Source of the DNA: a candidate division FCPU426 bacterium
GTDB taxonomy: Bacteria > Oederibacteriota > Muellerivitia > Muellerivitales > Muellerivitaceae
Direction: 5' to 3'
Assembly (NCBI GenBank): GCA_027452205.1
Contig: DAIDGV010000023.1
Coordinates: 1 to 64,000, forward strand
DNA length: 64,000 bases
The notes below the pieces were generated by a model. That model saw nothing but the letters and a program-made list of their open reading frames with translations. It was not told where the DNA came from and ran no database searches. Below are positions 4,634 to 29,693 of this stretch, piece after piece. The first letter of the stretch is position 1; every line of letters begins with the position of its first letter. A program made the translations under genes and the position numbers.

Positions 4634-4639
4634 AGAATC

Positions 4640-13089: not shown

Positions 13090-13117
13090 TTGACACCCAT
13101 GTTTTGAGTGGTATAAA
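13090..13117 (+). promoter_or_regulatory. Sigma-70-like promoter ahead of the transfer operon
   Basis: TTGACA at 13090-13095 and TATAAA at 13112-13117 are separated by 16 bases. This is among the best consensus matches I noticed in the window. It points rightward and would transcribe the lipoprotein, barrel and type IV secretion-like genes. Confidence 0.6.
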
Positions 13118-13205
13118 TACAGATGGTATACACTTGTATACTTATTGGAAGCTCTCCGCCAAAGCATAGGGCGAAGACAGAGTGCTATGTAAATAGGGTA
13201 GTCGT

Positions 13206-13607
13206 ATGAAGCAGAACGGTTTTGTATTTAGCAGTTTCGTATTTTGGGCGGTGGGAACCGTTATTTCGGCCTGGGGTTCAAGCGGCCAGAGGGCGCAACA
13301 CTATATTGCCTTTTTGCCGACCCCAATTCCCACCGGTCACACGGACCCGGGTATTCATTGTGAAATGCACCCAGGGCAACTCCTTCTAACTTTTTTCTCA
13401 CTCAAAACTATCCGCTCAAAAATATCCAGCTTGTCGTCACGAATTACCAATCAGATCAAAACCGAATCGGTTCATGTAAATGATTTTTATGTTGGGGGCA
13501 GGGGATCTTGCCCGCCCCTGAATGGGACGTTTTTGAATTTGTTTTTTTCAACAACGGGTCTGTTCAGGTTTGAATTTGTCCCAATAAGGCGAATTCAATA
13601 TTTATGA
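13206..13607 (+). pseudogene. Possible decayed secreted-protein gene
   Basis: An open frame of 133 codons begins with a plausible signal peptide (MKQNGFVFSSFVFWAVGTV) and a FLPTPIPTG stretch like the PT linkers in the next two genes. After about residue 60 the composition becomes poor, while a different frame reads NYPLKNIQLVVTNYQSDQN and, after a stop, PAPEWDVFEFVFFNNGSVQ, both more protein-like. I infer a secreted protein gene broken by frameshifts or stops. An intact but unusual protein cannot be excluded. Confidence 0.35.
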
Positions 13608-13625
13608 GTTGTATTGGAGGGTTTT

Positions 13626-14723
13626 ATGAAGAAGTACACTATTTTAGTTTTGCTTTTTATGTCGTTTATGCCGATGGCAACACTACTCTTACCTTTGGGG
13701 TGTGGCAACAAGGAGACGCCCGCCGCGCCCTATGACATCGCCTTTTCTCCGACTCCAACGCCGGTTGTTCAAGTGATCGGGCCGGTTGGAGTAGCGGTCG
13801 CGGATAAGGGGGTAGGGGTTGTCGGCTTAACGGTGTATGCCATACCACCGTCCGGGGTTCCAACCTATACGGCGACTACGGTCACCACCGGAATCGCAAC
13901 CTTTAACCCTTCGTCCCTCCAACTGGGTATTTGGACTTTTGTTGTTCCGGCACAAACTCCGTTTCCGTTCGCGCCCTCGACCACTACGATGGCCGTTTCG
14001 GTCGCGAATGAGGTCGCTAACTTCAACTCAGCGGGGGCAGCTCTTTACCTGACCCCAACAGTACCGGAAACATTCACTTCAACTAATCCAGGATCACCCT
14101 ATACCTACAACCTCGTTTACAGCCAGCCTGGAAATTTATTCGTCCCGGCACAACTTGCTTTTTCGTCGCTTCCGAACAACTGGAGCGCTTCCTATGCGCC
14201 TAAGACGATTGGGTATGGGAGTGGGGATACTGCCACGGTAAGTCTCTCCGCCGTCAACTGCGTGGATCAGGCTCCCAACTTCTCGGTGACGGCCATGGAT
14301 TTAGAGTCCACGTCTTATCCCCGCGCCATTAGTACACCCCAAGTTATTACGAAAGGGTTCACTTCCACCGTTACGGTGTCGTGGAACACGACAGGACTCA
14401 ATAACAGTTTTTGCAACAACGGAGACGGTATAGGCATCGTCTACGGAAACCTCGTTGTTTCGGCTTCCAATAGTTGTTCACCGGTCGTGAGTGTTTCCAT
14501 GAATGCCGGTAACTGTTGCTACAGCCGTTTTGCTACTCCCAATGGAACCCAGAGCGCGGCTAATTGCGGGGGAGGCTCCGTCCAATTCGGGCCGGGTAGT
14601 TATTCCTGTGAGATTGACAGCGGGGCAACTTGGGGAGCTTTGACCTGTTCTTATAACGGAGTAACCAACACTGTGGCTGTTCCCACGTCTGGTTCAGTCC
14701 AGATTTTAAGCACGTCTTATTGA
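13626..14723 (+). CDS. Secreted lipoprotein with a PTPTP linker
   Basis: A 365-residue protein starting ATG after GGAGGG. The signal peptide ends in a lipobox (LLLPLGC), followed by a linker (AFSPTPTPVV) and an all-beta region rich in Thr, Ser, Val and Gly with many short repeats of Ig-like character. The C-terminal third has seven or more cysteines (NCCYSRF, CGGG, CEIDSG, CSYNG) that could form disulfides outside the cell. It is the first intact gene of the transfer-like operon. It may be a surface adhesin or channel accessory; family not recognised. Confidence 0.65.
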   Translation: MKKYTILVLLFMSFMPMATLLLPLGCGNKETPAAPYDIAFSPTPTPVVQVIGPVGVAVADKGVGVVGLTVYAIPPSGVPTYTATTVTTGIATFNPSSLQLGIWTFVVPAQTPFPFAPSTTTMAVSVANEVANFNSAGAALYLTPTVPETFTSTNPGSPYTYNLVYSQPGNLFVPAQLAFSSLPNNWSASYAPKTIGYGSGDTATVSLSAVNCVDQAPNFSVTAMDLESTSYPRAISTPQVITKGFTSTVTVSWNTTGLNNSFCNNGDGIGIVYGNLVVSASNSCSPVVSVSMNAGNCCYSRFATPNGTQSAANCGGGSVQFGPGSYSCEIDSGATWGALTCSYNGVTNTVAVPTSGSVQILSTSY

Positions 14724-14735
14724 TCGGAGGGAGAC

Positions 14736-15968
14736 ATGAAAAATCAAATAGCTTTAGTCCTCGTATTCTTGGCGACGGTATCGACCGCCATGGGAAAACC
14801 AAAACCGACGATTACGCCCACGCCCACCCAAACACTGGGTTCGACCCTTTCACCTACACCAACCCCCAAGCCCGTTTGGGTTCAACCGCCGTCGGTGGAC
14901 AAGGATTCCAAGTCCCTCAACGCTACTGTTGCCTTGCACTATTCGGACGATGTGAATGGCTCCAAGGCGGATTCTTTGTTCGATTTATCCGCCGTCAGGA
15001 AGTTGGATGAAAATGACGTTTCGGCCCAGGGAACCGTCCGTTTCGAAAAATCAGCTTCGGGTTCGGATGATGTGGAAAGTCTGGAACTACGGGAAGCGAA
15101 CATCTCCCTTTCCGAACCTTGGTTTGAGGCCAGGGCTGGTCGGATGGATTTGTCCGATCTTGTCACCACGACCCATTTTTTCGGTCTTTACCCGCTGATG
15201 GGCCAACGGCGTTTGGACGGCATTAAGATTTATATCCCGTTTAAATTCTTCTTTGGCGTTGAGGACTATAAGAGCGTCTCAAGCCCGCCAACTTCCTTAA
15301 GCTTTTTTTATTTCCCAAGTTTCTTTTCAAGTCAAAATTCCGCGATTGACGGCTCCCAGGGATTTTTCATGGGACAGGCCCGGATGAAGCTGGATTTCGG
15401 AGACCTTCGAACGGTGCTTCTTTTCAACTTAGGGGCGAGTTTCAACAACTGGCTCTATTACGGTTCTTTAAGCGGCAATCCAACCTATTCGATTTGTGGG
15501 GAGGCGACATTGAACAAAAACAATTCCCTCTATTTCGAGTATGGGGTCCTGAACGCGGCTGACACTGCCGATACGAACGTTTTTGCTTTCGGCGGAAAGT
15601 TACAGCACCTATTTACTTGGGAATTTCTTTCTCTGGATGAAGTCATTCTTGAGGTGCAGCTACCATTGGGCACCAATACTAATGACCCTTTCACCGGTGG
15701 AAACGGAATTGATCCATCCTTGGCTGGCCTTGCCCAGACAGTCTGGTATGGGAAGGCGAGAGTTCGTATTCGTTCCATCTTCATCGATTTCAATATCACC
15801 AATTCCCAGAACGATTACACACTGGCGCGGCTCAACACCTACAACATCAATACACCCCTGCCGCTTCCCGTTGGACGGGGAAATGAGACGGATGGATTGG
15901 AAACGCCGCTCTCGTCCTCAGGGTACGGCAACATAGCTTTCAGCGTGGATATGGGGGTGCCGTTTTGA
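14736..15968 (+). CDS. Outer-membrane beta-barrel protein with a PTPTP linker
   Basis: A 410-residue protein with a signal peptide (IALVLVFLATVSTAMG), a linker containing ITPTPTQT and SPTPTPKP, and a barrel-like body of alternating amphipathic strands ending in Phe (FSVDMGVPF). It is likely to sit in the outer membrane. It is 12 bases after the lipoprotein gene and overlaps the next gene by 4 bases, so it belongs to the transfer-like operon. It could supply the outer-membrane pore that VirB7, VirB9 and VirB10 make in classical systems, but that is an inference. Confidence 0.65.
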   Translation: MKNQIALVLVFLATVSTAMGKPKPTITPTPTQTLGSTLSPTPTPKPVWVQPPSVDKDSKSLNATVALHYSDDVNGSKADSLFDLSAVRKLDENDVSAQGTVRFEKSASGSDDVESLELREANISLSEPWFEARAGRMDLSDLVTTTHFFGLYPLMGQRRLDGIKIYIPFKFFFGVEDYKSVSSPPTSLSFFYFPSFFSSQNSAIDGSQGFFMGQARMKLDFGDLRTVLLFNLGASFNNWLYYGSLSGNPTYSICGEATLNKNNSLYFEYGVLNAADTADTNVFAFGGKLQHLFTWEFLSLDEVILEVQLPLGTNTNDPFTGGNGIDPSLAGLAQTVWYGKARVRIRSIFIDFNITNSQNDYTLARLNTYNINTPLPLPVGRGNETDGLETPLSSSGYGNIAFSVDMGVPF

Positions 15969-16456
15969 AAAGCATGGTTCTTTTCCTTTTGACCGTCACT
16001 CCCGCGCTAGCTGACCAGAATCTTTTTATTCCGATTCGGGAGAGGTATCAGTGGGCCATTGAACAGCTTATGGAACACCAAAAACGGACTGATTGGTCCC
16101 AATTGGATGTGACGGTTAAGAAAGAGAAATTGAAAAGACTTAAGGAGATAGCCCAGGCAACGGCTGTCCCTTTTCAACCCAAAACGTTCACCTTCGTGGC
16201 TGAGACGGATAAGGCGAAAGTGAACGTTACGGTGACGACATTGGATGGGAATTTCATCATTGATGTTTCGGCGGACCAGTCCATTCAAGGCTGGATTTTA
16301 AAGCGGCAATCCACCCGTCAGGTTTTCCTGAAGGGTGGAGCCGGTGACAACCCCTACCAGACCCGAATCCGGGTGGAAAGGCCTTACGTCGCGGATTTCG
16401 GCCTTACGGTTTTCGTGTCCGATGACAGTGATCCGGCGTTTGTGCGGCTTTTTTGA
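15965..16456 (+). CDS. Periplasmic protein of the transfer-like operon
   Basis: A 163-residue protein with a short signal peptide (MKSMVLFLLTVTPALA). A helical charged segment (RERYQWAIEQLMEHQKR) precedes a beta-rich region with VNVTVTTLDGNFIIDVSAD and a C-terminus ending VSDDSDPAFVRLF. It overlaps the barrel gene at ATGA-type junctions (TTGA here) and is 9 bases before the PH-domain gene. No family is recognised; it could link inner- and outer-membrane parts of the apparatus. Confidence 0.6.
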   Translation: MKSMVLFLLTVTPALADQNLFIPIRERYQWAIEQLMEHQKRTDWSQLDVTVKKEKLKRLKEIAQATAVPFQPKTFTFVAETDKAKVNVTVTTLDGNFIIDVSADQSIQGWILKRQSTRQVFLKGGAGDNPYQTRIRVERPYVADFGLTVFVSDDSDPAFVRLF

Positions 16457-16465
16457 GGTGTCGTT

Positions 16466-16951
16466 ATGGAAGAACAAAAGAAAGAACTAAAACTTGCTCA
16501 AGACTCTGAGGGCTTGGGGATCAAGGTGTTGAGGGTTTTGCATCCCTCTTTTTACCATTACGTTACGGTTTTGCTGATCCCCTTGGCTTTGCTGGGCCTT
16601 ATCCCGTTGGGGGTGGACTTTATCTTCGTTCTCTTGACAGTCTGGGTTTTTGAAATCCTGATGGTTTCGGGGTGTTGGGTTGCTTTGGTTACGACCCGAT
16701 ATGTCATACAGGCTGACCGCATTGAAATAACTTCGGGCATTTTGGTCAGGCAATCCCGGAGTGTTCCTTATGACAAGATTGTCAATATCACGGGGGACCA
16801 AAGCCTTTTACAAAGGTTGTTCAATATCGGAAATATTTTCATCGATACAGCGGGCGGCAAACCGTTTGAGACAGCCCTTTTTGGGGTCGAGAATCATCAA
16901 GAAGTAGTGGACTTCCTTTTTGCTCTCAAACAGCAAGGAGGAATCAAATGA
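16466..16951 (+). CDS. Membrane protein with bacterial PH (YdbS-like) domain
   Basis: A 161-residue protein. Two membrane helices (LLIPLALLGLIPLGVDFIFV and FEILMVSGCWVALV) precede a bacterial PH domain with the family signature YVIQADRIEITSGILVRQ, then VPYDKIVNITGDQSLLQR and DTAGG. Such domains are usually found in membrane stress or secretion accessory proteins. A PH protein inside a secretion operon is unusual. The gene overlaps the following gene by 4 bases (ATGA). Confidence 0.8.
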   Translation: MEEQKKELKLAQDSEGLGIKVLRVLHPSFYHYVTVLLIPLALLGLIPLGVDFIFVLLTVWVFEILMVSGCWVALVTTRYVIQADRIEITSGILVRQSRSVPYDKIVNITGDQSLLQRLFNIGNIFIDTAGGKPFETALFGVENHQEVVDFLFALKQQGGIK

Positions 16952-17811
16952 AAACCATCCTGATATGGTCTTTGGTGGCCTTATTCACCATTCAGCCTGT
17001 TTACGCGGACCTCACCCCGGATGATCCTAAGGTCGATGAGGAGTTGAAGAACAATGTTTTCGAATTCCGGGATTGGATGATGAAGGAGTTGGGACAGTTT
17101 CCCAAACCGGACCCCTCGCGGGTTTATCGCGGAATGGGTGTGGCCGCTATCACCAAGAAAAACTCAGTTTTTACGACAAGCCAATACAACCAAGCGGCTA
17201 AATCGGATTGGGTGAAGTGCCAGGTCATGCAAGGGCTTTCGCTTTTGAGCCAGCAACTTTCCACCACTGTTGGAACCGCTTTGGCTCCTCAAAGCTCGAC
17301 CCAGCTTCAGCAATACGCGACCCAGTTACAACAAAGCGACGATCCGCAATTCCAGCAAATTGGAACGCTTTACACCCAGGAAGCCCAAGCGATTCAAAGC
17401 GGAAATGTCCAAGCCGCCGATTCAGCGGCCAGCCAGGTTACTGCCGTGGCTCCGCCCATTGTCGCTTCCAGTTATCAACCGAGTAGCAGTGAAAGCAGTT
17501 TGGCCCAGGCTTTCACGACGATCCTTAGCATGGTGATGATGGCTTATGGATCGGTTTTCGGGGCGGCTTTTGTCAGTCAACTGACACAGGCGATGAATGG
17601 GAATACGAGTTCAAGTTCGTTGATGGGAACCGGCGCAAGCCTGGGCACTATGATTTCGGCTGGACAAAATCCGGGTGCGGCGTCCAGTAGCTCGGTGCTA
17701 ACCACTATCCAGGGCAGCGGTGCGGTGATGCAGCAATTGGGAACGGTCAATGTCCAGCCACGCCAATCCCAGAACTCGACGAATGCAGGAAGCGCGCCAC
17801 CGGCACAGTGA
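16948..17811 (+). CDS. Secreted Gln/Ser-rich protein of the transfer-like operon
   Basis: A 287-residue protein with a signal peptide (IWSLVALFTIQPVYA). The region before residue 100 has a WMMKELGQFPKPDPSR motif; the middle is Gln-rich and helical (QQYATQLQQSDDPQFQQ), and a hydrophobic segment (ILSMVMMAYGSVFGAAFVS) lies near residue 200. The tail is Gly/Ser/Asn-rich and disordered-looking. The layout recalls VirB5- or TrbJ-type minor pilus proteins, without a recognisable family match. Confidence 0.55.
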   Translation: MKTILIWSLVALFTIQPVYADLTPDDPKVDEELKNNVFEFRDWMMKELGQFPKPDPSRVYRGMGVAAITKKNSVFTTSQYNQAAKSDWVKCQVMQGLSLLSQQLSTTVGTALAPQSSTQLQQYATQLQQSDDPQFQQIGTLYTQEAQAIQSGNVQAADSAASQVTAVAPPIVASSYQPSSSESSLAQAFTTILSMVMMAYGSVFGAAFVSQLTQAMNGNTSSSSLMGTGASLGTMISAGQNPGAASSSSVLTTIQGSGAVMQQLGTVNVQPRQSQNSTNAGSAPPAQ

Positions 17812-17907
17812 GGATTATCAGGTGGGCGTGGGAATATTAATACAGCGGTAATTCGCGAAAAGGAGGCATGGACGGTAAGAGAGGTTTCTATTTCAAGGAG
17901 GAAATAT

Positions 17908-18270
17908 ATGAGAAGGGAAATATTTAAACAATGGATGAGCCGGATCGGAATGGGAATTTATTTCTTGGCGGCATCGGGGGAAGCGGGCGCGCAGGCGCTT
18001 GCCAGTTTGCCCGAACTGTCTCCGGTTAAAACGATGATTCTTTTTATCATCGACGCTTATGGAACTTGGAAGCTCATTGGGTGCGTCAAGAACGTCCTTG
18101 ACCACCTAGCAGATTCCAGCAAAGGGGATACCACGGCCAAGGACAGGGTATGGGGAAGCGTTCTGGCCTTTGTGGGGATTCTCATGGTCGGCGTGATGGT
18201 GAATGTTTTGATTTTGAAGGCGGGCCAATTTGGGGCCAGGCCGGTGAGTTCGGTTTTATCCGGTAACTGA
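17908..18270 (+). CDS. Small two-helix membrane protein, VirB2-like by position
   Basis: A 120-residue protein after a perfect AAGGAGGAAATAT ribosome site. Hydrophobic stretches at residues about 12-30 and 88-110 (VLAFVGILMVGVMVNVLIL) surround a polar loop (DHLADSSKGDTTAKD). The strong ribosome site implies high expression. Size, two hydrophobic segments and position just before the VirB6-like gene suggest a VirB2/TrbC pilin-like subunit. No conserved pilin signature is seen, so the assignment is tentative. Confidence 0.5.
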   Translation: MRREIFKQWMSRIGMGIYFLAASGEAGAQALASLPELSPVKTMILFIIDAYGTWKLIGCVKNVLDHLADSSKGDTTAKDRVWGSVLAFVGILMVGVMVNVLILKAGQFGARPVSSVLSGN

Positions 18271-18284
18271 TATGGCGGTGAGAT

Positions 18285-20201
18285 ATGAAGTTGAGTTTAT
18301 GTATTTGTTTATTCATTTTTGTCTTGATTGAAGCGTCCGAGGCTTTCGCTGTCACGGTTTTGTCCACGGACAGCGGGCCTACGACGGAAACCATCAAGCA
18401 AGGTGTCAGCGAAGGGATCTTCGATTCCATCGCGAAACACGCGGGGGATTGGGTTTCCAATGGAATGAATTCCATCGGCAACTGGGCGCTTCAAACCCTC
18501 TTTATGATTTATGACAAATACATCGGCACTTTCCTTATCTACATTCCCGATTTAGCTTCTCCCCAGACCTATACAGCGCTGATTTCCACCAATGGGGTTG
18601 CGGCATCCAATGCGGTCAATGTGGTCTTGAATATCCTTCAGATCACTTGTGGATTTGGTCTCTACATTTTGTTTGTGGGGTTCGTTTTGGACGTGGGCCA
18701 GCGATCTTCTGGTTTGTGGAATAGGTCGGTGGAGCCTTCAATGGTCATTGGATTTTCCACCGCGTTTATCTGTATCTTCGCGTGGCCCATCGTCCATTCA
18801 TACATCACCAACGCCATAACGGCGATGGGATATTACATCTATAACCAAAATACATTGAGGACAACCGGGGTTTTGGAAGGGCTCCAAAATATTGACCTCA
18901 ACTCTTCCGGTTTGAATGTTGTCCAGTCCGCCCAAGTCAATTTTAGAAGCAACTTTATAACTTCACAGGGAATGGCTTGGAATCTAGTTTATATCCTCTC
19001 TTTGGGATTTGTTGTGGTTGGCTTTTACAACTGTTATTCGGCTATCTCGGGTGGGGATGGAAAAAACGGTAGCTACCGGTTTTTCCAGGCTGTCGCTGGA
19101 ATCGTCTTGATCTTAGGTGTGCCGACCGTGATACACGCTTTCATCAGCCGTGGGGCTGATACGGTCAGTAGTCAACCGGCAATTCCGGGCGAGACCCTTC
19201 AAACCTTCTCGCTCCAAGGTCTCATCCAGGACAACGGAATTCAATTTCCCGGCCAACAAACAGGAGCCACTTCCAATATTGGAACGGCGGGAAACAATCC
19301 GGTGGCTCAGCCCACTAGCCGGGTAGCCACTTTCGCCGCTGGCCTTATCAAAGTTGGAGTCTCCCTCTGGGGTTTGATTGTTTGTTTCGGCGTTATCTTC
19401 GCCAAGTTTTTCCAGATTCTTAATATCTGGGTCATGTTCGTCCTGGGACCGATTTTTATTGGATGCCTGGGACATCCAGCCACCGCGCCCATTTTTTGGG
19501 GGGCGCTTCGGTATTTCACCAAATTACTTCTTTATTCCATTGTTTGGGCGATCACGCTGGTCGGGCTTTATCTGGTTCCAAACATCAATTGGGGAGTCGA
19601 GACCATCGGAGTGAACAGCCTTTTGACCGCTTGCGCGGTTTTGGCGGGTCTCCAATTGATCTCTAACGTCCAGGAATTCGCGTCTTTGTTCACCAGTTTC
19701 CAGGGAGCCAACCTCAAAGGTGAGGGATACAAGGACGCAATTCGTGACACGGCAGGAGCGGTGGGCCTCGCCAATGCCGCGAGGGTGAAAACTTTCGGTG
19801 GGGTGAAAGCTGTTACGGGAGAAGCGGGGCAAGCGGCGGCAACTGCGGCTGGGGCCGCAGTTGGTTCTGTTGTCCCATTTGTAGGTACGGCGGGCGGGGC
19901 TATGGCGGGCCAAAAGATTATGAAGGGTATCCACATGGGAGCGAAGTTCGCCGGATTCAGCACGAAGAACCGGGGCGAACAGGGTGAGACTAATCCGACT
20001 TCCAGTTTAATCAAAAGATTTTCCGGCGATGTGATCTCCAAGAATTTGGCGAAAGATTCAAAAAAGGACTTTTCACAAAAAGAAACGGCGAACCGTCAGC
20101 TCATCGGGGCCTATGCCAGGAGACTTGAGAGAAGCGGGACGCCACCTACCAACCGGGGGACGGGTGGAGACAGGAGGGGCGGCGATGGCAATTCCACTTG
20201 A
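18285..20201 (+). CDS. VirB6/TrbL-like inner-membrane secretion component
   Basis: A 638-residue polytopic protein. A signal-like N-terminus (CICLFIFVLIEASEAFA) precedes at least six long hydrophobic segments between residues about 100 and 480, then an Ala/Gly-rich cytoplasmic-type tail (AAATAAGAAVGSVVPFVGTA) ending in Arg/Gly repeats. This layout is typical of VirB6/TrbL, the membrane channel of type IV secretion. It is followed directly by VirB3- and VirB4-like genes, the expected order neighbours. Confidence 0.75.
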   Translation: MKLSLCICLFIFVLIEASEAFAVTVLSTDSGPTTETIKQGVSEGIFDSIAKHAGDWVSNGMNSIGNWALQTLFMIYDKYIGTFLIYIPDLASPQTYTALISTNGVAASNAVNVVLNILQITCGFGLYILFVGFVLDVGQRSSGLWNRSVEPSMVIGFSTAFICIFAWPIVHSYITNAITAMGYYIYNQNTLRTTGVLEGLQNIDLNSSGLNVVQSAQVNFRSNFITSQGMAWNLVYILSLGFVVVGFYNCYSAISGGDGKNGSYRFFQAVAGIVLILGVPTVIHAFISRGADTVSSQPAIPGETLQTFSLQGLIQDNGIQFPGQQTGATSNIGTAGNNPVAQPTSRVATFAAGLIKVGVSLWGLIVCFGVIFAKFFQILNIWVMFVLGPIFIGCLGHPATAPIFWGALRYFTKLLLYSIVWAITLVGLYLVPNINWGVETIGVNSLLTACAVLAGLQLISNVQEFASLFTSFQGANLKGEGYKDAIRDTAGAVGLANAARVKTFGGVKAVTGEAGQAAATAAGAAVGSVVPFVGTAGGAMAGQKIMKGIHMGAKFAGFSTKNRGEQGETNPTSSLIKRFSGDVISKNLAKDSKKDFSQKETANRQLIGAYARRLERSGTPPTNRGTGGDRRGGDGNST

Positions 20202-20475
20202 GAAGGAGTCCAAAATGTGGGGCATGTTTTATAACTCCGATTTCCACAAACTCATGTTCGCGTTCATTGCCGATTCCTTGGCGTTCATGGCGTTTTTTGC
20301 CTTGTGGGGTTTGGAGGGGAGCCTAGTTCTCTTTTTCGCCGTTTTGGGGATTGTCACGGTTTACTTCGTGATGAAGAGTTTTTGGCCGGAGAAATATTTG
20401 GAAAACATCATCCGTTACCACCGTGAACCGAAGGAATATTTTCACGGCAAGGAGAAAAGCGAGGTTGAACTATGA
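20185..20475 (+). CDS. VirB3/TrbD-like small membrane protein
   Basis: A 96-residue protein with two adjacent hydrophobic helices (FIADSLAFMAFFALWGL and LVLFFAVLGIVTVYFVM) and a charged C-terminus. The gene lies immediately before the VirB4-like ATPase and overlaps it by 4 bases, as virB3 does before virB4. Two starts are possible: ATG 20185 after AGGAGGGG, overlapping virB6 by 17 bases, or ATG 20215 after AAGGAG. I chose the first, but the second is equally well served. Confidence 0.65.
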   Translation: MAIPLEKESKMWGMFYNSDFHKLMFAFIADSLAFMAFFALWGLEGSLVLFFAVLGIVTVYFVMKSFWPEKYLENIIRYHREPKEYFHGKEKSEVEL

Positions 20476-22976
20476 AAACTCAAAAAGCATCGATTGCGGA
20501 ATTGCTGAGGATAAGGGCGGTGGGTCCTGGCTTCATTGTTTTGAGGAACCCGGAACAGTTTGTCGCCGTTTTTAAGATAACGGGAGGCTTCAACCCCTGG
20601 ATGGAAGCCCCGGATGTTTTGGCGGATAAGGTCTCGAAACTAGACGCGGCGTTGGGAGACTTGAGACGGGGGGAGGAAGTGCAGTTTCTAACCAAACGGG
20701 CTTCCGCTGACGTGGAAACCGTCATCGATCATTTCCAAAATCGGATTCATGAAAACGCCCCGGAAGTATTCCGGCATCAATATCCCGAATTCCTGAGAAA
20801 TTGGCTCCGTGAATTTTATTTGGACCACCGTATTTGCCGTTATCTTTCCTTCGTCCTTTTCACAATTACCCCGCCGTCATCCGGGCCGAAAGGTGTAAGC
20901 GGTTTAAAGATCGAGGAAATACTGAGACGTGGGAAATCCTGGGCCTCCCAACTGAATCATTTGGGAATGGACATCTTGGAGCCGTCTGAAGAGGAAATTT
21001 ATACACTTTTATATGAAGAACTGTCTCTTGAACGTTTTTATGGCAATCCGCAAAGGTTCAAAAACTCCTATTCCTTTTCCGGGGGTGACCAAGGATTCCA
21101 GACCATCCGCGAAATGCTGGCAACCAGTCCTTGGGATTTCAAGGACCCCAACTGTTTCAAAGTAGGCGACACCTTTGGGAAAGTTCTCTATGTCACCGAG
21201 TTTCCTGGTTTCAACGAACAAAGTCTTTTCTTCCGGGAGCTATACGAACAATCGGATGATTTCAAAGTTTCGCTTTTTGTGAAGGGCGTGGATTCTTTCC
21301 GTGCCTTGTCCATTGTTGAGAAACAAATCCAGGCGGACCAGGGGGCGATTTGGAAGAAAGAGAATGTCGTTAATTATGAGGCTAAAGCATCCTTGGATTA
21401 TCGGCAGGAAGTCCTTTCCTTGGTTTCGGAACGAAAGACATTTCTCGCCAAATTCTCCCTTTACGTGACCCTCTTTTCCAATGACCGCCAAAAGCTCATG
21501 ACGGGTTATGAGAACTTGGCCCGAATGTTCAAAAACGTTCACCCTCTATCCGGGTATGCCGAACAAAAGCCGCTTTTCCTATCAACGTTACCCCAAGCCG
21601 CAGATGTTGCGCTTCATGAGCATCTTCAGGCCACCGCAATCATTGCCAACGCCGTTCCCAGCCTTTATGAACCTATCGCTGATACGGATGGAATCCCCCT
21701 TGGGAAAACTCTCTCCGGCCAAATGGTGCTTTTGGACCTATGGAACAAGGAAACGGAAAACTGGAACATCCTAGTGGTTGGGTCTTCCGGAACCGGGAAA
21801 TCCTTCACGATCAACCAGCTTCTCATCAAGAACCGCCATTTGAATCCCTACGTCATGATTAACGACAAGTCGAAGTCGTACAAAACGCTATGTCTGTTAT
21901 CCGGTGGCAAGTACCTCAATTACGACCTGGACAGCAAACACCACCTGAATATTTTTGATTACCCGTTGGATGAGATCAAGGAACTGGACGGCGAGATTGA
22001 TCCCGACCATGTTTCCCACGTCATCATGTACCTGGGTGTCGTTCTCGCCAATGTGAAAGGGGACGTAATTGAGGAAACGGAGGAGTTGGATAAGGCATTA
22101 CTCCAGGAGGCGGTCAAACAAACCTACCGAAACGTCATAGGTGAAAAACGAGTTCCCATTTTATCCGACCTGAAGGAAACCCTTTTGAAAATGTCGGACG
22201 ACCGCAAAGTGCCGGCCCAATTCCAATACATCTGCCGCAAGCAGGCTGAAATTCTAAAGCTTTTCACCGGCAAGGGTATTTACGCGAACTTGTCTGACCG
22301 GGAATCGACCGTCCAATTGGATAACAACTTTATCGTTTTTGACACTTCGGGGATTAGCGACAACGATAAAAAGGCCTTGGGGTTAGCGGTTTTTGTTATC
22401 TCGAATTATTGCCTCCAAAAAGCAAAAGAAAATATGGCATTGAATCGCCTCTCCCAACTCGTCCTTGATGAGGCATGGCACTTGGCCCAATACCCGGCGG
22501 GACTAGCTTTTCTTTTGCGGATAGCGAAAACAGCCCGTCACCTTCGCCTCCAACCTACATTCGCGACCCAAGAGATCGGAGAGTTCTTCGGCGTGAAGGG
22601 TGTTGAAGCCATCCTGAAGAATACCGCCACCAAGATATTGCTCAAGTTGGTCGGAGACGATGTTGGACACGCAAGAGGGCTTCTGCAACTTAATCCTAAC
22701 CAAGTCGAAAAAGTGATGAATTTGCACCAAGTCAAAGGTGTCTACTCCCAAGCTCTGATCCATCAGACCCATCGGCAGGGAGTGGTCAATATCTATCCTG
22801 ACGAGTTGGCCTACCACATCGCGACAACATACGGCCCGGAAGCGGCTATCCGGGAGCGTTATTTGGAAGCTTATGCCAGTGACGGGGACCCGATAAAAAT
22901 TCTTGGAGCCATCAGTAAGTGGATTGATGACAAGGACAACCATCGAGTTCTTAAGGAATCAGTCGTATCAAAATAA
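20472..22976 (+). CDS. virB4: VirB4/TrbE-type type IV secretion ATPase
   Basis: An 834-residue AAA-type ATPase that powers pilus assembly or substrate movement. The Walker A motif GSSGTGKS is at about residue 437 and the Walker B motif QLVLDEAWHLA at about 663. The N-terminal half matches the VirB4 N-domain (FLRNWLREFYL, YLSFVLFTITPP). The C-terminal part has FATQEIGEFF and ILKNTATKILLKL, typical for this family. Full length. This is the most certain gene of the transfer apparatus and the best search seed. Confidence 0.93.
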   Translation: MKTQKASIAELLRIRAVGPGFIVLRNPEQFVAVFKITGGFNPWMEAPDVLADKVSKLDAALGDLRRGEEVQFLTKRASADVETVIDHFQNRIHENAPEVFRHQYPEFLRNWLREFYLDHRICRYLSFVLFTITPPSSGPKGVSGLKIEEILRRGKSWASQLNHLGMDILEPSEEEIYTLLYEELSLERFYGNPQRFKNSYSFSGGDQGFQTIREMLATSPWDFKDPNCFKVGDTFGKVLYVTEFPGFNEQSLFFRELYEQSDDFKVSLFVKGVDSFRALSIVEKQIQADQGAIWKKENVVNYEAKASLDYRQEVLSLVSERKTFLAKFSLYVTLFSNDRQKLMTGYENLARMFKNVHPLSGYAEQKPLFLSTLPQAADVALHEHLQATAIIANAVPSLYEPIADTDGIPLGKTLSGQMVLLDLWNKETENWNILVVGSSGTGKSFTINQLLIKNRHLNPYVMINDKSKSYKTLCLLSGGKYLNYDLDSKHHLNIFDYPLDEIKELDGEIDPDHVSHVIMYLGVVLANVKGDVIEETEELDKALLQEAVKQTYRNVIGEKRVPILSDLKETLLKMSDDRKVPAQFQYICRKQAEILKLFTGKGIYANLSDRESTVQLDNNFIVFDTSGISDNDKKALGLAVFVISNYCLQKAKENMALNRLSQLVLDEAWHLAQYPAGLAFLLRIAKTARHLRLQPTFATQEIGEFFGVKGVEAILKNTATKILLKLVGDDVGHARGLLQLNPNQVEKVMNLHQVKGVYSQALIHQTHRQGVVNIYPDELAYHIATTYGPEAAIRERYLEAYASDGDPIKILGAISKWIDDKDNHRVLKESVVSK

Positions 22977-22996
22977 GGTATTTGAAGGAGTGTTAT

Positions 22997-23593
22997 ATGA
23001 GCGAGAACAAGGGTTTGAATTTTTTGGATGAAATCGACGAGGAATCTAAGGGTTCCAACAAAGCCACCAGGATGGTCATGTTTGTGTTGGGGGTGGCGTT
23101 GGTTGGAATTTTGCTAACTTTTCTTTGGGGAAGATCGCGGGCGACGGTAACGCCTTCACAGGCCAAGACTGTTCAAGTCAAGGATTTGAAAGCCGTACAA
23201 ACCGAGACCCAATACGGACCCATCACGGACTTTGCGGAAAGGTTCGCAATTGCCGCTTTTAATGTCAGTTACGCGACCATCAATCGGCAAGTGGATAAGG
23301 TGACCGGCCTGATGACCGACAACCTGATGTCCTATTACCAGGAAGCGTTTTTGGACCAATCCTGGGTTTCTTTCTTGACCACGAATAAGGCTTACGTCAG
23401 CTACCAAAAAATAGAGCGATCTAGCGTGATGAACGTGGAAGGGAACCACTATTGGATCAAAGTCATCGGCGTCAGCCGCTTTAACTCGGACAAATTAGGA
23501 TTGGAATCATCAATCGACCTTCCTATGAACCTGATCGTAGTAGTCAAGAGTGATAACGGTTCGCTTCAAATTTCAAATTTTGAGAGGTTTTAA
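22997..23593 (+). CDS. VirB8/TraE-like bitopic assembly protein
   Basis: A 198-residue protein starting ATG after GAAGGAG. A 35-residue cytoplasmic part is followed by one membrane helix (MVMFVLGVALVGILLTFLW) and a periplasmic domain of about 130 residues with NTF2-like features (FAERFAIAAFNVSY, then DNLMSYYQEAFLDQSWV and IDLPMNLIVVV). This is the topology and size of VirB8/TraE, the periplasmic nucleation factor of type IV secretion. Its position directly after virB4 agrees. Confidence 0.7.
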   Translation: MSENKGLNFLDEIDEESKGSNKATRMVMFVLGVALVGILLTFLWGRSRATVTPSQAKTVQVKDLKAVQTETQYGPITDFAERFAIAAFNVSYATINRQVDKVTGLMTDNLMSYYQEAFLDQSWVSFLTTNKAYVSYQKIERSSVMNVEGNHYWIKVIGVSRFNSDKLGLESSIDLPMNLIVVVKSDNGSLQISNFERF

Positions 23594-23594
23594 C

Positions 23595-25064
23595 ATGGAG
23601 ACATTACAAATCAACCCGGAGTTAGCGAGGCAATGCCTTCAAGCAGCCCACCTTTATATGGAAACCAAGGCTTATAAAAAAGCGCTCAAGCATTTCGACG
23701 ATGTTATCTATTCCCACCAACCTCACAACGTTGAGGCCTACTTGGAGTCGGCCCGAATTTATGCCAGGTTCGGCAAGCCGGAATCGATTCTCAAGGTGAT
23801 AAACCGGCTCCACAACTTTTCTGCCAAGACGCCCGAGAGCCTTGTTCTTTTAGCCAGGGCCCAATTCTTAATGAAACAGTACGCGGAATGTGACGTTACG
23901 CTCAAAGAGATATTCACCAAGGCGCGGGATTTTTCGGAAGCCCTCGCGTTAGAGGCGGAACTGTTTATCTATACCGAGAAGTGTGAGAACGCGATTGAAA
24001 TGCTTCAAAGTTTGAACCTTCGGTTCCCGAAAAACCGTGAATATCTGATCCTCTTAGCCACGGCTTATTACTCCTCAAAAAAATACCATCGCACGATCCA
24101 TATTTGCTCCACGTTGATGCAGGCGGGATTTAACGACCCGAAAGTTAAAGGGTTGTTCGAGATTGCCAAAAAGCAGGAGAAAACGGAGGCGCTTGAAAAA
24201 TTGAAGGAGACGAAACCTTTTAAATGGTGTCTTGCGCTTACGTTCCCTTGGCTTTTAGAGGGGGAACTGCGGACGAACTCTGCGGATAAAACGCTGCAAG
24301 AAAACTTGGTTCAAGAAACCCTGATTGATGACCGCACTGGCCTTTACAACGACCGGGCGGCCAGGCATCAGATCCCCGCCTTGGCCGCCAGGAGAAAGAA
24401 ACAGTTCTTTTTGACCATGGCGGATATCGACTTTTTCAAATCCTTCAATGACGTTCACTACAACCATCAGGTGGGAAACGCTGTTTTGAAAGCCCTGGCC
24501 AAAGCGGGGCAAAAAATATTTACCAAGGACCGTATTTGGCGCTACGGAGGGGAAGAAATTATTTGGGTCCATGATGGCAGTGAGCAAGAGGCTGTGGAGA
24601 AGGCGGAGGAGTTCAGGAAATATGTCGAGGAGCATGTCGCCGAGGACGCGAATGAAATCATTAAAAGGGAAGACATAAAGCATTACGCGGATGGATGGGA
24701 TCACAAAAAGGACGAGGTATTTGTCGTTCATTATCCGGTCACGCTAAGCCAGGCCATTGTTCTTTGGGGTGAAGACGGAAATAGCTTGGAAAGCCTTTTG
24801 ACGGCAGCGGACGACGGGCTTTACAACGCCAAAGAAGCTGGGAGGAACGCGATTGTATATAGGAGCATCCTCAGGAACAAAGGCGAGAAGCCTATCAAGT
24901 ACACGCCTGAATTACTTGAAGTGCTCCATGAATATTCGATTAAGAAGGGAGCACCGAATTGGTGGAGTTATCTCTCAAACCTTTCCCAAGTGGCCCGAGA
25001 AGAGGTTTTGGAGTATGCGCGGAACACATTGACGAATAAGGAGGTGATGCAGTCTCGAAAGTGA
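23595..25064 (+). CDS. TPR-repeat diguanylate cyclase (GGDEF domain)
   Basis: A 489-residue soluble protein. The first 230 residues form TPR-like helical repeats (YKKALKHFDDVIYSHQPHN). The GGDEF domain has the metal-binding DIDFFKSFND and the active-site RYGGEEI (about 316-322), a GGEEF variant ending in Ile. The inhibitory RxxD site is replaced by FTKD, so product inhibition is unlikely. It should make cyclic di-GMP. The gene begins 1 base after the VirB8-like stop, so it is translated within the secretion operon. Confidence 0.88.
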   Translation: METLQINPELARQCLQAAHLYMETKAYKKALKHFDDVIYSHQPHNVEAYLESARIYARFGKPESILKVINRLHNFSAKTPESLVLLARAQFLMKQYAECDVTLKEIFTKARDFSEALALEAELFIYTEKCENAIEMLQSLNLRFPKNREYLILLATAYYSSKKYHRTIHICSTLMQAGFNDPKVKGLFEIAKKQEKTEALEKLKETKPFKWCLALTFPWLLEGELRTNSADKTLQENLVQETLIDDRTGLYNDRAARHQIPALAARRKKQFFLTMADIDFFKSFNDVHYNHQVGNAVLKALAKAGQKIFTKDRIWRYGGEEIIWVHDGSEQEAVEKAEEFRKYVEEHVAEDANEIIKREDIKHYADGWDHKKDEVFVVHYPVTLSQAIVLWGEDGNSLESLLTAADDGLYNAKEAGRNAIVYRSILRNKGEKPIKYTPELLEVLHEYSIKKGAPNWWSYLSNLSQVAREEVLEYARNTLTNKEVMQSRK

Positions 25065-25104
25065 GTTGTGTATTTTTAGTGAATATATTTTAAGGAGAAA
25101 AGTT

Positions 25105-25410
25105 ATGGCTCTGAAAGTAAGTATCAAGCGGATGTATCCCTATGAAGGCGAGGGCAATATCAAAGCCTTTTTCGATGTTAAGTGCTCGATGGGAGGTCGT
25201 GTTTTCGGTTTCAACGACCTGAAACTCATCAAGAGCGAGAACACCGGGCTTTTTGTTGGACACCCTTCTAAGGCTGGAAGCCAAGAAGGGGAGTTCTTTG
25301 ACTATTCCTATACGGATGGGAAGTCAAAGCAGGACATTCAAAGGGCGGCCATTGCGGCCTACAACAAGAAGCTTAAGGAAAAGACTTCAGCGACCGCCCA
25401 GGCGAGCTGA
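25105..25410 (+). CDS. SpoVG-like protein
   Basis: A 101-residue protein starting ATG after AAGGAG. The core FGFNDLKLIKSENTGLFVG, then PSKAGSQEGEFFDYSY and KQDIQRAAIAAYNKK, matches the SpoVG fold, where a conserved NGLFVAMPSK motif has the same layout. SpoVG proteins bind nucleic acid and act as site-specific regulators. Here it lies between the secretion genes and the excisionase/integrase pair, so it could control element expression. The role is inferred. Confidence 0.8.
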   Translation: MALKVSIKRMYPYEGEGNIKAFFDVKCSMGGRVFGFNDLKLIKSENTGLFVGHPSKAGSQEGEFFDYSYTDGKSKQDIQRAAIAAYNKKLKEKTSATAQAS

Positions 25411-25431
25411 AGGGTAAAGAGGGGGTTTGTC

Positions 25432-25725
25432 ATGAAAGACCGAAGGAATGGATTTGAGCGGCGGGGCCAAGATCAAGATTACCTTATGACAGAGATCGAG
25501 GTGGCTAAATTGGCAAGGGTTTCTGTTAACACGGTTCGATATTGGCGTCAGACCGGAATCATTCCATTCGTGAAAGTAGGTCGCCATCCGCGGGTATGGT
25601 GGTCCGCCTTTCAAACGGTCTTTCATAGGCCCTCGATACCTGAAACGTTGGAACGAAACCTCGATTCTGATAAAATAGCCAAAGTTGTGGACCGACAGAG
25701 GAGGAAATCCGATGTCACGTCCTAG
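25432..25725 (+). CDS. Excisionase-like helix-turn-helix protein
   Basis: A 97-residue protein with a MerR/HTH_17-type domain: EIEVAKLARVSVNTVRYWR, then GIIPFVKVGRHPRVWW, the pattern of Xis-like proteins. The gene overlaps the integrase gene by 14 bases, as excisionase genes often do. It probably directs recombination towards excision or represses the integrase. Short charged tail (VDRQRRKSD) after the domain. Another possibility is a transcription regulator for the operon. Confidence 0.75.
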   Translation: MKDRRNGFERRGQDQDYLMTEIEVAKLARVSVNTVRYWRQTGIIPFVKVGRHPRVWWSAFQTVFHRPSIPETLERNLDSDKIAKVVDRQRRKSDVTS

Positions 25726-26785
25726 CAAATTTGGCTTTCGGGGTCTTCGAAAGGACCACCGGGGTTATTACGTCGATCATTACTTTATGGAAGGGGGCAA
25801 AAAGAAAAGGAAAAGAGAATGGCTGGGCCATATCACGTTGCCGGAAGCAAAACGGATCATGGAAAAGAAAATGCCGACCATCAGCAGACCCGGATCAAGA
25901 ATTACGTTTGTTGAAGCGGCGGATGGTTTTTTAGCTTTTTCCGAAGTGCGGAAGAAAAGCCATCACCAAGATCTGATTTATGTAAAAAGGCTTAAGGCGT
26001 TTTTTGGCACGAAGCCGTTGGAAAGCTTGAACCTAGACGAAGTTGAGAAGTTTCTCGCCGATCATAAGAAGCGGCGGGAGGAAGCGGGAGAACCGCCTCT
26101 TAAAGGCTCAAGCCTGAATCGCTATCTTGCTTGTTTGAAAACCATCGTAAGAAGAGCGTTTTTGAACGGGCATATTGATAGAAATCCGATTCAAGGAATA
26201 AGGCTTTTTAAAGAGACTCCTCGTGATACCACGATCACGCAAGAGGAATTCCAGAACCTTCTCGACCAATGTCTACCTCATATGAAGCCGGTTGTGGAAC
26301 TGGCTTATTACACTTGTATGAGGAAGGGCGAGATACTTGGGCTCGAATGGCCTCAGATTGATTTCAAGAATAAGATACTTACTCTTGAAGCGTCTGATAC
26401 CAAGACCGAGGAAAAGCGCGAGATACCGCTGGATGATACACTCCTTGCGATATTTAGGAACATCCCTCGGACGCTCGGGACAAACCAGGTCTTCACGTAC
26501 CAAGGTCAGGCTATCGCGGATATTCGTACAGGATTCGCTTCTGCGTGTCGTAAAGCGGGGATCAAGGGTTTGCATTTCCACGATCTGAGAAGATGCGCGA
26601 TAACGAATATGCGGAAAGCAGGTGTTCCTGAGTCCGTGATAATGTCCATCAGCGGGCATAAGACACAAGCTGTTTTCAGACGGTACAACCGTATCGACAG
26701 GGAAGACCGCCGCCAAGCGCTGGAAAAAGTTCGTGACTGGTCGAAAGACACTCATAAGACAGTGAACTCGATCAGGGCTGTTTAA
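25712..26785 (+). CDS. int: Tyrosine recombinase (integrase)
   Basis: A 357-residue phage-type integrase starting ATG after GAGGAGG. The N-terminal SAM-like DNA-binding domain (about 60-160) precedes the catalytic domain with Arg in CMRKGEILGLEW (about 204), HDLRR (His 290, Arg 293), ISGHK (about 315) and the nucleophile Tyr in RRYNRID (about 324). The set is complete, so it should be active. The next feature downstream is the 3' half of a tRNA-Leu gene, the expected attachment site. Confidence 0.95.
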   Translation: MSRPSKFGFRGLRKDHRGYYVDHYFMEGGKKKRKREWLGHITLPEAKRIMEKKMPTISRPGSRITFVEAADGFLAFSEVRKKSHHQDLIYVKRLKAFFGTKPLESLNLDEVEKFLADHKKRREEAGEPPLKGSSLNRYLACLKTIVRRAFLNGHIDRNPIQGIRLFKETPRDTTITQEEFQNLLDQCLPHMKPVVELAYYTCMRKGEILGLEWPQIDFKNKILTLEASDTKTEEKREIPLDDTLLAIFRNIPRTLGTNQVFTYQGQAIADIRTGFASACRKAGIKGLHFHDLRRCAITNMRKAGVPESVIMSISGHKTQAVFRRYNRIDREDRRQALEKVRDWSKDTHKTVNSIRAV

Positions 26786-26845
26786 AAAGTTTACTTTTAA
26801 AAGGTTTTTTGCAGAAACTGAGCTATTAAAACCCGATGTAGATTT

Positions 26846-26900
26846 CTCAAAATCTATCGACTTCACGGTCATGTCGGTTCAAGTCCGACCTCGGGCACCA
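26846..26900 (+). other. attR: 3' half of a tRNA-Leu(CAA) gene
   Basis: From CTCAAAA (anticodon loop with CAA) the sequence gives the right anticodon stem TCTAT, a variable arm with GAC/GTC pairing, the T arm GTCGG-TTCAAGT-CCGAC, the acceptor strand CTCGGGC, discriminator A and encoded CCA. The upstream bases cannot form the matching anticodon stem (GATTT instead of ATAGA) and no GCCCGAG acceptor strand precedes it, so no full tRNA is here. This is the usual scar of integration in the anticodon loop. Confidence 0.75.
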
Positions 26901-26961
26901 TTTTTTCGGGTTAGAGATTTCCCTTCGAAAACTCTCAAAATCATTGTCCCCAGCGGAATTC

Positions 26962-27003
26962 AAGGCTCTTGTCCGATCAAAAAAATCGGGCAGGGCCTTT
27001 TTT
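26962..27003 (+). terminator. Rho-independent terminator downstream of the tRNA-Leu remnant
   Basis: AAGGC and GCCTT form an outer stem, TGTCCGAT and ATCGGGCA an inner stem (one G-T pair) around CAAAAAA, followed directly by six T. It is placed where the terminator of the original tRNA gene would be. Confidence 0.65.
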
Positions 27004-27194
27004 ATTTAGGACGGTTCGGGAGGGATTTGGAGGGCAAAAAAGGGTCGAAAAGGGGTTCGAATGACACGGATAAGACGCGGGAAAGACCGGGGAGGTCACT
27101 AGCCTTTTAGACTATTGGGGGAACTAGGTGGGGGGTGTCATTCTTGTGTTCTTGGGCTCCCTTGACATTCGGGATGGTAAGGATAAAAATGTAT

Positions 27195-27212
27195 ATAGTT
27201 TTTAATAACTAT
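27195..27212. promoter_or_regulatory. Inverted repeat ahead of abiEi, probable AbiEi operator
   Basis: ATAGTT (27195-27200) and AACTAT (27207-27212) form a dyad 17 bases before the abiEi start, downstream of TTGACA at 27162. AbiEi antitoxins are known to repress their own promoter through inverted repeats. The exact -10 box is unclear. Confidence 0.45.
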
Positions 27213-27228
27213 AGACGGTATTATCCAA

Positions 27229-27849
27229 ATGGAAACGACGACCAAAACCAAATCATACGAAAAAGCCATCCGGGTCTTTCGAAGCCACGGAGGCCTTCTC
27301 TCGTCCACCGAGGCCATGCGGGAGGGCATCCATCCCAGGGACCTCTACGCCATGCGGGATGCCAAACTGCTGGATCAGCTCAGCCGAGGTCTTTACCGGC
27401 TTTCCAATATGCCATCCCTGGAAAACCCAGACATCGTGACGGTGGCTAAACGGGTGCCTGAAGGTGTCCTTTGTCTTATTTCAGCGCTTGCCCTTCATGA
27501 ACTGACCACCCAAATACCCCATGAGGTTTATCTGGCTCTCAAGATGGGTGCCAGGGTTCCACGGCTTGAGAATCCACCCCTGAGGGTGTTCCATTTTTCG
27601 GGCAAGGCCTTTACGGAGGGGATCGAGGAGAGAAAGGTGGATGGCATAACCTACCGGGTTTATTCCCGCGAGAAAACCCTAGCCGATTGTTTCAAACACC
27701 GGAATGTCGTTGGAATGGATACGGCACTGGAAGCCCTCCGAAATTATTGGAAGAGCAAGTGGAAGAAAACGGATGAACTCACAAGATTCTCTAAAATCTG
27801 CCGTGTGGAAAAGGTGATGGCGCCATACCTGGAGGCTATCCAGGTATGA
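27229..27849 (+). CDS. abiEi: AbiEi-type antitoxin of a type IV toxin-antitoxin system
   Basis: A 206-residue protein with an N-terminal winged helix-turn-helix (EKAIRVFRSHGGLLSSTEA, then MREGIHPRDLYAMRDAKLL) and the C-terminal AbiEi antitoxin domain (GVLCLISALALHELT, then YSREKTLADCFKHRNVVGMD). In the family this protein represses the operon and neutralises the toxin without direct binding. It overlaps the toxin gene by 4 bases (ATGA), the standard arrangement. Confidence 0.92.
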   Translation: METTTKTKSYEKAIRVFRSHGGLLSSTEAMREGIHPRDLYAMRDAKLLDQLSRGLYRLSNMPSLENPDIVTVAKRVPEGVLCLISALALHELTTQIPHEVYLALKMGARVPRLENPPLRVFHFSGKAFTEGIEERKVDGITYRVYSREKTLADCFKHRNVVGMDTALEALRNYWKSKWKKTDELTRFSKICRVEKVMAPYLEAIQV

Positions 27850-28772: not shown

Positions 28773-28782
28773 AAACACTAAA

Positions 28783-28815
28783 ACACAAACCCCTTAGTTA
28801 TTAAGGGGTTTGTGT
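28783..28815. terminator. Strong 13-bp-stem hairpin after abiE
   Basis: ACACAAACCCCTT and AAGGGGTTTGTGT form a perfect 13-bp stem with a 7-base loop, 11 bases after the toxin stop codon. On the minus strand the stem is followed by a T-rich stretch, so it may stop transcription from both sides. Confidence 0.7.
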
Positions 28816-29018
28816 AACCTACCGAAAAAGGGCAATAGGGACAGGGATATAAGCCATGAGCACAGCAGAAATTTCGCAACCGATAAGCGGTGACAAGCTT
28901 TACCAGAAGCGTGCTCGCGAAGCCTTTCCGCTCCTTGTTTAATGGGCCGCGAGATTAAATTTTCGTCATCTTTCACATTTAACTTGAACTCTTCCTTGAA
29001 TTGAAATCACATACCCTC

Positions 29019-29693
29019 ATGAAAATTTTGATTGTTGAGGACGAAGCCAAAACCGCGAACTACCTCGCCAAAGGGCTTGAGGAAAACGGCTTTTCCGTGG
29101 ACCGAGCTTTGACAGGTGAAGAAGGGTATCGATTGGCCGGGTCGGGAAGTTATGACCTGCTAATCCTCGATGTCATGCTTCCCGGTAAAGACGGTTGGTC
29201 CATCTTGCGGGACCTGCGCCAAACAGGGCATAAATTCCCCATTCTTTTTTTAACCGCGAGGGACGCGGTGGAGGACCGCGTCAAGGGATTGGAATCCGGC
29301 GCGGACGACTATCTGGTCAAGCCTTTCGCTTTTTCTGAATTGTTGGCCCGGGTACGGTCGCTATTGAGACGGGGGCCGACACGGCTATCGGATATCCTCC
29401 AGATCGCCGACCTGGAGATCGACCCCATACGACACAAGGTCCAACGGTCCGGTCAACGATTGGACCTGACACCCAAAGAATTCTCGCTTTTGTATTTGTT
29501 GGCTTCCAGGAACGGTGATGTTTTATCCCGTACGTTCTTGGCGGAACAGGTATGGGACATGAACTTTGACAGCGATACGAACGTGGTCGACGTCCATGTC
29601 CGGAGGCTTCGATCGAAAGTCGACGATCCGTTCGATCGAAAGCTGATCCATACGGTGCGGGGGGTGGGGTATGTTCTCGAAGACCGGGGATAA
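29019..29693 (+). CDS. OmpR-family heavy-metal response regulator (CusR/CopR-like)
   Basis: A 224-residue response regulator. The receiver domain has acidic pocket EDE at 7-9, the phosphorylated Asp at 51 ([13 protein letters not shown]), Thr in LFLTARD and Lys in DYLVKPF. The C-terminal winged helix shows [13 protein letters not shown] and [16 protein letters not shown] chose the ATG at 29019 (MKILIVEDE) over upstream in-frame codons. It overlaps the sensor kinase gene by 23 bases. Target genes are probably the efflux genes downstream. Confidence 0.92.

Follow-up and report, generated by a model that had tools for sequence, protein, structure and literature searches.

Type IV secretion systems (T4SSs) of Gram-negative bacteria are described in a 2025 review as all containing an outer-membrane core of VirB7, VirB9 and VirB10, apart from a small number of unexplained exceptions, among them PAPI-1 of Pseudomonas aeruginosa (PMC12857230). 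The FATA systems of monoderms, which are known with relaxases of the MOB_C type, are described as not having been found among Gram-negative bacteria (PMC5357655). Here we analyse a T4SS locus on a 64,000-nucleotide stretch from a candidate division FCPU426 bacterium (assembly GCA_027452205.1, contig DAIDGV010000023.1, positions 1 to 64,000; hereafter the window), which forms the right part of an element of 65.4 kb in tRNA-Leu(CAA). The element is probably an integrative and conjugative element (ICE) in which non-homologous parts adapt a conjugation channel of monoderm type to a diderm envelope. More tentatively, it may stand for a family of diderm conjugative elements that took up a FATA-type translocon, crosses the outer membrane by means of a porin, an immunoglobulin (Ig)-like protein and the secreted protein orf287, and possesses a TPR-GGDEF subunit for cyclic di-GMP (c-di-GMP), and thus for a separate mating-pair-formation (MPF) class. 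If true, such a class would be missed or called incomplete by standard T4SS typing.

An integrated element of 65.4 kb divided between two contigs

Just to the right of a tyrosine integrase gene, the window contains a 61-bp repeat (26846-26906, + strand) that holds the 3' half of tRNA-Leu(CAA). The only other copy of this half in the genome belongs to an intact tRNA-Leu(CAA) on another contig (C19:53367-53453), whose end (C19:53399-53459) is identical to the repeat at 60 of 61 positions, and a tRNA scan of the window found none. Insertion into the 3' end of a tRNA gene leaves the intact tRNA at the opposite end of the element. The orientation of the scar therefore places the remainder of the element to the left, past the start of the window's contig (C23). 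Indeed, the first 141 bases of C23 are exactly the last 141 bases of C19, and this 141-mer has no further occurrence in the genome. Together with the intact tRNA on C19, the unique overlap establishes by computation a single element across both contigs, running from C19:53367 to C19:91972 and then from position 142 to 26906 of the window, 65,371 bp in total. The left limit at 13090 that had been proposed from the sequence alone is thus replaced by one on C19. As expected of an ICE, the element combines a tyrosine integrase and 61-bp flanking repeats at a tRNA with VirB4 and a coupling protein, the two contigs being linked by the overlap.

The VirB genes form a run (13206-26785) in which all genes lie on the + strand, with intergenic gaps between -17 and +96 bp. 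It opens with a small open reading frame (ORF), after which come the genes listed below, in this order from the lipoprotein to the integrase:

13090-13117, +: promoter-like TTGACA-16-TATAAA before the operon, visible in the sequence
13626-14723, +: lipoA, a lipoprotein with lipobox LPLGC, which adjoins the porin in some relatives
14736-15968, +: outer-membrane porin, predicted beta-barrel of ~16 strands (AlphaFold, Foldseek)
15965-16456, +: orf163, secreted, with a C-terminal Ig-like beta-sandwich (predicted structure)
16466-16951, +: bPH_2 membrane protein, present in part of the relatives (Pfam, 1e-16)
16948-17811, +: orf287, a conserved protein that is secreted and has a hydrophobic segment at its C-terminus
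17908-18270, +: VirB2-like candidate (size, hydrophobic profile, slot)
18285-20201, +: VirB6/TrbL-like polytopic protein with multiple transmembrane segments (TrbL, 4e-5, below the Pfam cut-off)
20185-20475, +: VirB3/PrgI-like protein (weak PrgI-like match)
20472-22976, +: VirB4 ATPase (Pfam P-loop_TraG, 5e-23)
22997-23593, +: VirB8-like protein with one transmembrane segment (family profile matches)
23595-25064, +: conserved TPR-GGDEF protein with a GGEEI motif, closing the VirB run (Pfam)
25066-25410, +: SpoVG-like protein (Pfam 4e-6, NCBIfam 7e-7)
25432-25725, +: HTH_17 protein, excisionase (Xis)-like (Pfam)
25712-26785, +: tyrosine integrase (Phage_integrase, 8e-24)
26846-26906, +: attR, the 61-bp repeat described above

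The gaps, Pfam matches and family profiles bear out the sequence-only reading of a packed run with VirB6-, VirB3-, VirB4- and VirB8-like proteins, a VirB2-like candidate, excisionase, integrase and tRNA scar. The single promoter that it placed before the run fared less well: the match can be seen in the sequence, but a promoter scan does not pick it, and since promoter-like sites in the region are fewer than in shuffled sequences, the match is no evidence of function. The identity of the VirB4 gene is certain, its family profile matching the solved VirB4 structure 4ag5 with an E-value of 5e-36; the VirB4 marker PF03135 fails to detect this protein, so that the absence of a PF03135 match means little. 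Single-sequence matches of VirB3 and VirB8 are weak and become stronger with family profiles, that of VirB3 matching a Pontibacillus protein encoded directly upstream of VirB4 (2e-4), and that of VirB8 matching the Legionella IcmL-like protein 5cnl (E 0.0015) as well as, in the T4SS locus of a genome from another phylum (G055), a membrane protein of the size of VirB8 (E 3e-4). The profile of the VirB2 candidate matches a protein directly before VirB3/VirB4 on the plasmid pYRE (1.7e-5).

VirB4 placement, coupling protein and relaxase candidate

Among 45 genomes of one phylum, seven carry this VirB4 (eight when one fragment is counted), of which six are at least 90% complete; one genome, G001, has several copies, and such a patchy, multicopy distribution is typical of mobile DNA. 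A search of IMG/VR for this VirB4 gave no match. In the VirB4 tree the family forms one clade (support 100/99), and the monoderm FATA type, represented by two references, pCF10 and Pontibacillus, is its sister group (99/98). When the longest references, pCF10 included, were left out, the family stayed with the Pontibacillus FATA-type protein (100/99).

The C19 half encodes a VirD4-type coupling protein (C19:71776-73731; TrwB_AAD_bind 4e-15, TraG-D_C 4e-12), for which the best NCBIfam match is CD1115 (7e-17), directly followed by a 278-aa protein (p278). In the contig G001:C81, VirD4 and p278 lie ~29 kb upstream of the VirB4-VirB8-GGDEF end, in the same order and on the same strand, and the VirB4 there is without its N-terminus. 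Three further contigs (G001:C47, G001:C87 and G019:C68) hold a complete VirB cluster together with VirD4, beside which ParB or ParAB is encoded. These relatives confirm the union of the two halves. Furthermore, VirD4 is present in eight of the 45 genomes and VirB4 in seven, with both in six (hypergeometric 2e-5, an optimistic value as the genomes are related). VirD4 of this family was also observed without any VirB4 in the genomes G002 and G004, the pattern of mobilizable elements, which use a T4SS from elsewhere.

Relaxases of the PF03432 type were searched for in the seven VirB4-bearing genomes, and none was found. MOB_C relaxases correspond to PF13814 (Replic_Relax; PMC5357655) and are related to PD-(D/E)XK nucleases (PMC12857230), and p278 is likely a divergent candidate of this type. 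Its slot is equivalent to that of the gene beside VirD4 in G019, a Pfam-positive Replic_Relax (1.3e-9), and p278-slot genes are paired with VirD4 in G000, G001 (three times) and G019. Its family profile recognises the Pfam-positive Replic_Relax protein of G031 (22 bits with hmmsearch), and hhalign aligns the two over ~225 columns with P of 3e-4 to 4e-5, compared with 0.04-0.8 for the shuffles shown. In this alignment the RxPD...ExE motifs coincide, and D170, E187 and E189 are invariant across the p278 family, so that p278 shares with MOB_C the PD...ExE/K motif and the pairing with VirD4. As a reference for MOB_C, CloDF13 was left out, since mobB/mobC do not appear in the gene table of its record. 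VirD4 and relaxase, reported missing from the sequence alone, are thus indeed absent from the window, but VirD4 and a relaxase candidate lie on the C19 half; the suggestion that the missing genes lie further left was right for VirD4 and was rejected for VirB9 and VirB10, which are missing throughout the genome. Likewise, of the genes whose discovery elsewhere on the element was to turn it into an ordinary ICE, VirD4 and a relaxase candidate came to light, but not VirB9 or VirB10. From the gene content, DNA transfer appears well supported as the element's function.

The missing outer-membrane core and the co-encoded envelope proteins

Omp85 is encoded in all seven VirB4-bearing genomes, and their hosts are therefore diderm. 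None of the seven has a match to CagX (PF03524, VirB9) or TrbI (PF03743, VirB10), nor does either profile match within the VirB cluster itself, although the TrbI profile detects the VirB10 of another T4SS locus (G052). Among the ORFs of the element that were scanned, nearly all those of at least ~170 aa, VirB9, VirB10 and VirB11 likewise had no match; for VirB11 (T2SSE) this holds for the scanned ORFs, as a genome-wide T2SSE search was not made. The absence of these three proteins that the sequence-only reading had reported is thus upheld within these scopes. Because neither VirB9 nor VirB10 is present in this genome or in the six others that share the T4SS, their lack characterises the family and is no artefact of contig or assembly, which agrees in part with a streamlined system; the repurposed system offered beside it is not favoured, with VirD4 present in six of the seven VirB4 genomes.

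An alternative is an ordinary diderm ICE whose VirB9 and VirB10 have diverged beyond recognition: outer-membrane subunits evolve fast, and orf163 is a secreted beta-sandwich protein with lipoproteins encoded beside it. In the predicted structure, orf163 comprises an N-terminal helix and a C-terminal Ig-like sandwich (residues 74-162) with a predicted local distance difference test score (pLDDT) of ~94. A hidden VirB9 is not supported, as the fold search yields generic Ig-like matches and no VirB9. Moreover, no protein with the layout of VirB10 (cytosolic tail, transmembrane segment, proline-rich region, beta domain) is present, and VirB4 groups with FATA and not with the sampled systems that bear VirB10. 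Given also the CagX and TrbI results, we consider divergence of the core unlikely.

Instead of a recognisable core, a set of envelope proteins accompanies the VirB genes. In nine clusters from six families of one phylum, orf163, orf287, the VirB2-, VirB6-, VirB3-, VirB4- and VirB8-like genes and the TPR-GGDEF gene keep their order, and the porin is found in or near eight of the nine, all but that of G008. In G012 orf163 is not evident, and the protein in the GGDEF position contains TPR only. The porin consists of a signal peptide, a Pro/Thr-rich linker and a predicted barrel; its AlphaFold model (~16 strands, predicted template modelling score 0.76) is matched by Foldseek to OmpM1, OprB and OmpF with E-values of 1e-9 to 1e-7. 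Sequence searches of orf287 and the porin against the PDB found no relative. The proposal that other envelope proteins replace the core is consistent with this synteny and with the predicted porin fold, and such a role may well be filled by this set. As read from the sequence, the TPR-GGDEF protein of the window has GGEEI together with DIDFF and agrees with the RxGG(D/E)EF motif and metal-site Asp of diguanylate cyclases; GGEEF is present in the copies of G008, G019 and G031, and the motif, whole or nearly whole in most copies, is degenerate in two G001 copies and absent in G012.

In several clusters, lipoproteins encoded beside the porin carry a short collagen-like stretch (GPxGPx) that follows the lipobox (L018:3474-4265, L020:2516-3265, L023:12707-13498). 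In three relatives a topoisomerase III-like gene adjoins the GGDEF gene or is separated from it by a few genes (L023:53-2182, L024:2544-4703, L027:1343-3733); it is absent at the corresponding position in the window.

The GGDEF partner, the lipoproteins and the porin could also belong to a T4SS-derived machine that has been repurposed, as cargo, for secreting proteins, for surface display or for adhesion under c-di-GMP control, and the VirB-GGDEF cluster of G008, which is set among housekeeping genes and has no adjacent VirD4, would fit such a role. VirD4 and the MOB_C-like protein, however, are present on the element and on four relative contigs, and the distribution of VirB4 is that of mobile DNA, which makes repurposing improbable. 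A mobilizable island that uses the T4SS of another element, its own VirB set having decayed, is highly improbable: mobilizable relatives exist, as VirD4 without VirB4 in G002 and G004 illustrates, but the VirB genes in the window are intact, tightly packed and conserved, and the genome has no second VirB4.

Several points weigh against an ICE with a monoderm-type channel. The assembler left C19 and C23 unjoined, and a branch of the assembly graph may exist there. The best raw NCBIfam score for VirB4 is to TraC-F, whereas the tree places it with FATA, and with two FATA references this placement needs more taxa. G009 has VirB4 but no VirD4 of this family, and next to the G008 cluster neither an integrase nor a porin nor VirD4 was seen. 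p278 has no match to the Pfam profile PF13814, and a first single-sequence comparison did not clearly link it to Replic_Relax. Fast-evolving analogues of VirB7, VirB9 and VirB10 can escape hidden Markov models, the genome-wide search having covered CagX and TrbI only. Finally, the porin may be part of the cargo. In other systems, porins have been observed surrounding or accompanying T4SS cores (PMC12857230), so that a role as helper is a more modest alternative to replacement. The G008 cluster (G008:C30, L022:6773-14856) is flanked by housekeeping genes, with VirD4 on another contig, and is possibly a domesticated copy.

For the ICE with a monoderm-type channel, the following course is proposed from the sequence. 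The integrase and the Xis-like protein would excise the element at the 61-bp repeats, and p278, a MOB_C-like nuclease encoded adjacent to VirD4, would prepare the DNA. VirD4 would pass it to the inner-membrane translocon of VirB2, VirB3, VirB4, VirB6 and VirB8, a translocon of the kind used in monoderm (FATA) conjugation, without the VirB7/9/10 core and without VirB11, and VirD4 and VirB4 would drive it through the VirB3/6/8 channel. Since the host has an outer membrane, outward passage would most likely proceed by the co-encoded secreted set of porin, orf163, orf287 and lipoproteins, or this set may at least stabilise contact. The TPR-GGDEF protein probably couples assembly or activity to c-di-GMP. 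A conserved, repeatedly mobile and core-less diderm family with its own porin set makes core replacement directly testable. It also illustrates a pitfall, as an element that is split by assembly and has a relaxase candidate missed by standard profiles would be typed as incomplete.

Cargo genes and comparison with known systems

To the left of the VirB run, the window contains the following cargo:

1-10329, +: right part of the metal cargo, continuing from C19
1710-3845, +: HMBD/E1-E2 ATPase, metal cargo
5313-6788, +: OEP, metal cargo
7219-10329, +: CusA-like resistance-nodulation-division (RND) pump (from sequence)

The C19 half also holds three further tyrosine recombinases, ArdC, metal-handling genes, a complete 2-isopropylmalate synthase gene (leuA; C19:83151-84845, L037:11179-12873), an AbiE-type toxin-antitoxin pair near the intact tRNA (L036:5738-7352) and an Ssp-type phosphorothioate defence with SspB, SspC, SspD and SspA matches (C19:59945-71547, L036:7945-19547), between or beside which PLD-like, ResIII helicase, HATPase and PD-(D/E)XK proteins are encoded. 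Outside the element, a second AbiE-type pair lies just right of the scar (window 27229-28772), and a 541-bp stretch (window 41681-42215) is 72% identical, in inverted orientation, to L037:13059-13596 in the C19 half.

With the MPF_FATA systems of monoderms (pCF10 Prg/Pcf and the Pontibacillus CD1110 family) the element shares a VirB4 of the sister clade, a VirD4 nearest to the CD1115 family, and VirB3/PrgI, VirB6 and VirB8 without VirB7, VirB9 and VirB10. By contrast, its host is diderm, a VirB2-like candidate is present, no cell-wall hydrolase was recognised in the cluster, and the porin, the Ig-like protein, orf287 and the TPR-GGDEF protein are added. Like the diderm MPF_T and MPF_F systems (R388 Trw, F-type Tra), it has VirB2, VirB3, VirB4, VirB6, VirB8 and VirD4 in a diderm, but no VirB9 or VirB10 and no VirB11 match on the element, and its VirB4 lies outside their clade in the sampled tree. 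The element is thus neither a FATA member, given Omp85 in all seven hosts and its own RND and OEP genes, nor a canonical diderm member (MPF_T/F/G/I), as the outer-membrane core VirB7/9/10 was not found and a VirB11 ATPase not among the scanned ORFs.

Patescibacteria possess FATA-related T4SSs with VirB2-like pilins and no outer-membrane core (PMC12102498), but according to proposals an outer membrane is missing in these hosts. The plasmid pYRE of the diderm Myxococcus stipitatus (NZ_CP102771.1) has a similar layout of ArdC, ParA, ParB, VirD4, a small protein, VirB2/3/4-like proteins and topoisomerase, and is matched by the family profiles of VirB4 (1e-88) and VirD4 (2e-24). Its VirB4, however, groups with that of a Thermus plasmid (approximately unbiased test, p 4e-4 against joining the family described here), and the GGDEF slot is occupied by a Ser/Thr kinase with a weak TraM-like C-terminus (E 0.0027), which may hold a VirB10-like part; owing to this domain pYRE was dropped as a clean core-less control. 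The ParAB-VirD4-VirB4-topoisomerase stretch (15454-33175, L152) lies on a complete plasmid that is typed as non-mobilizable. Among diderms, the closest precedent for transfer without a core is PAPI-1, which transfers DNA with VirB4 and VirD4 and no recognised outer-membrane core (PMC12857230). PAPI-1 depends on a type IV pilus, whereas the element described here, in which no type IV pilus genes were seen, has VirB2-, VirB3-, VirB6- and VirB8-like genes together with the porin cluster.

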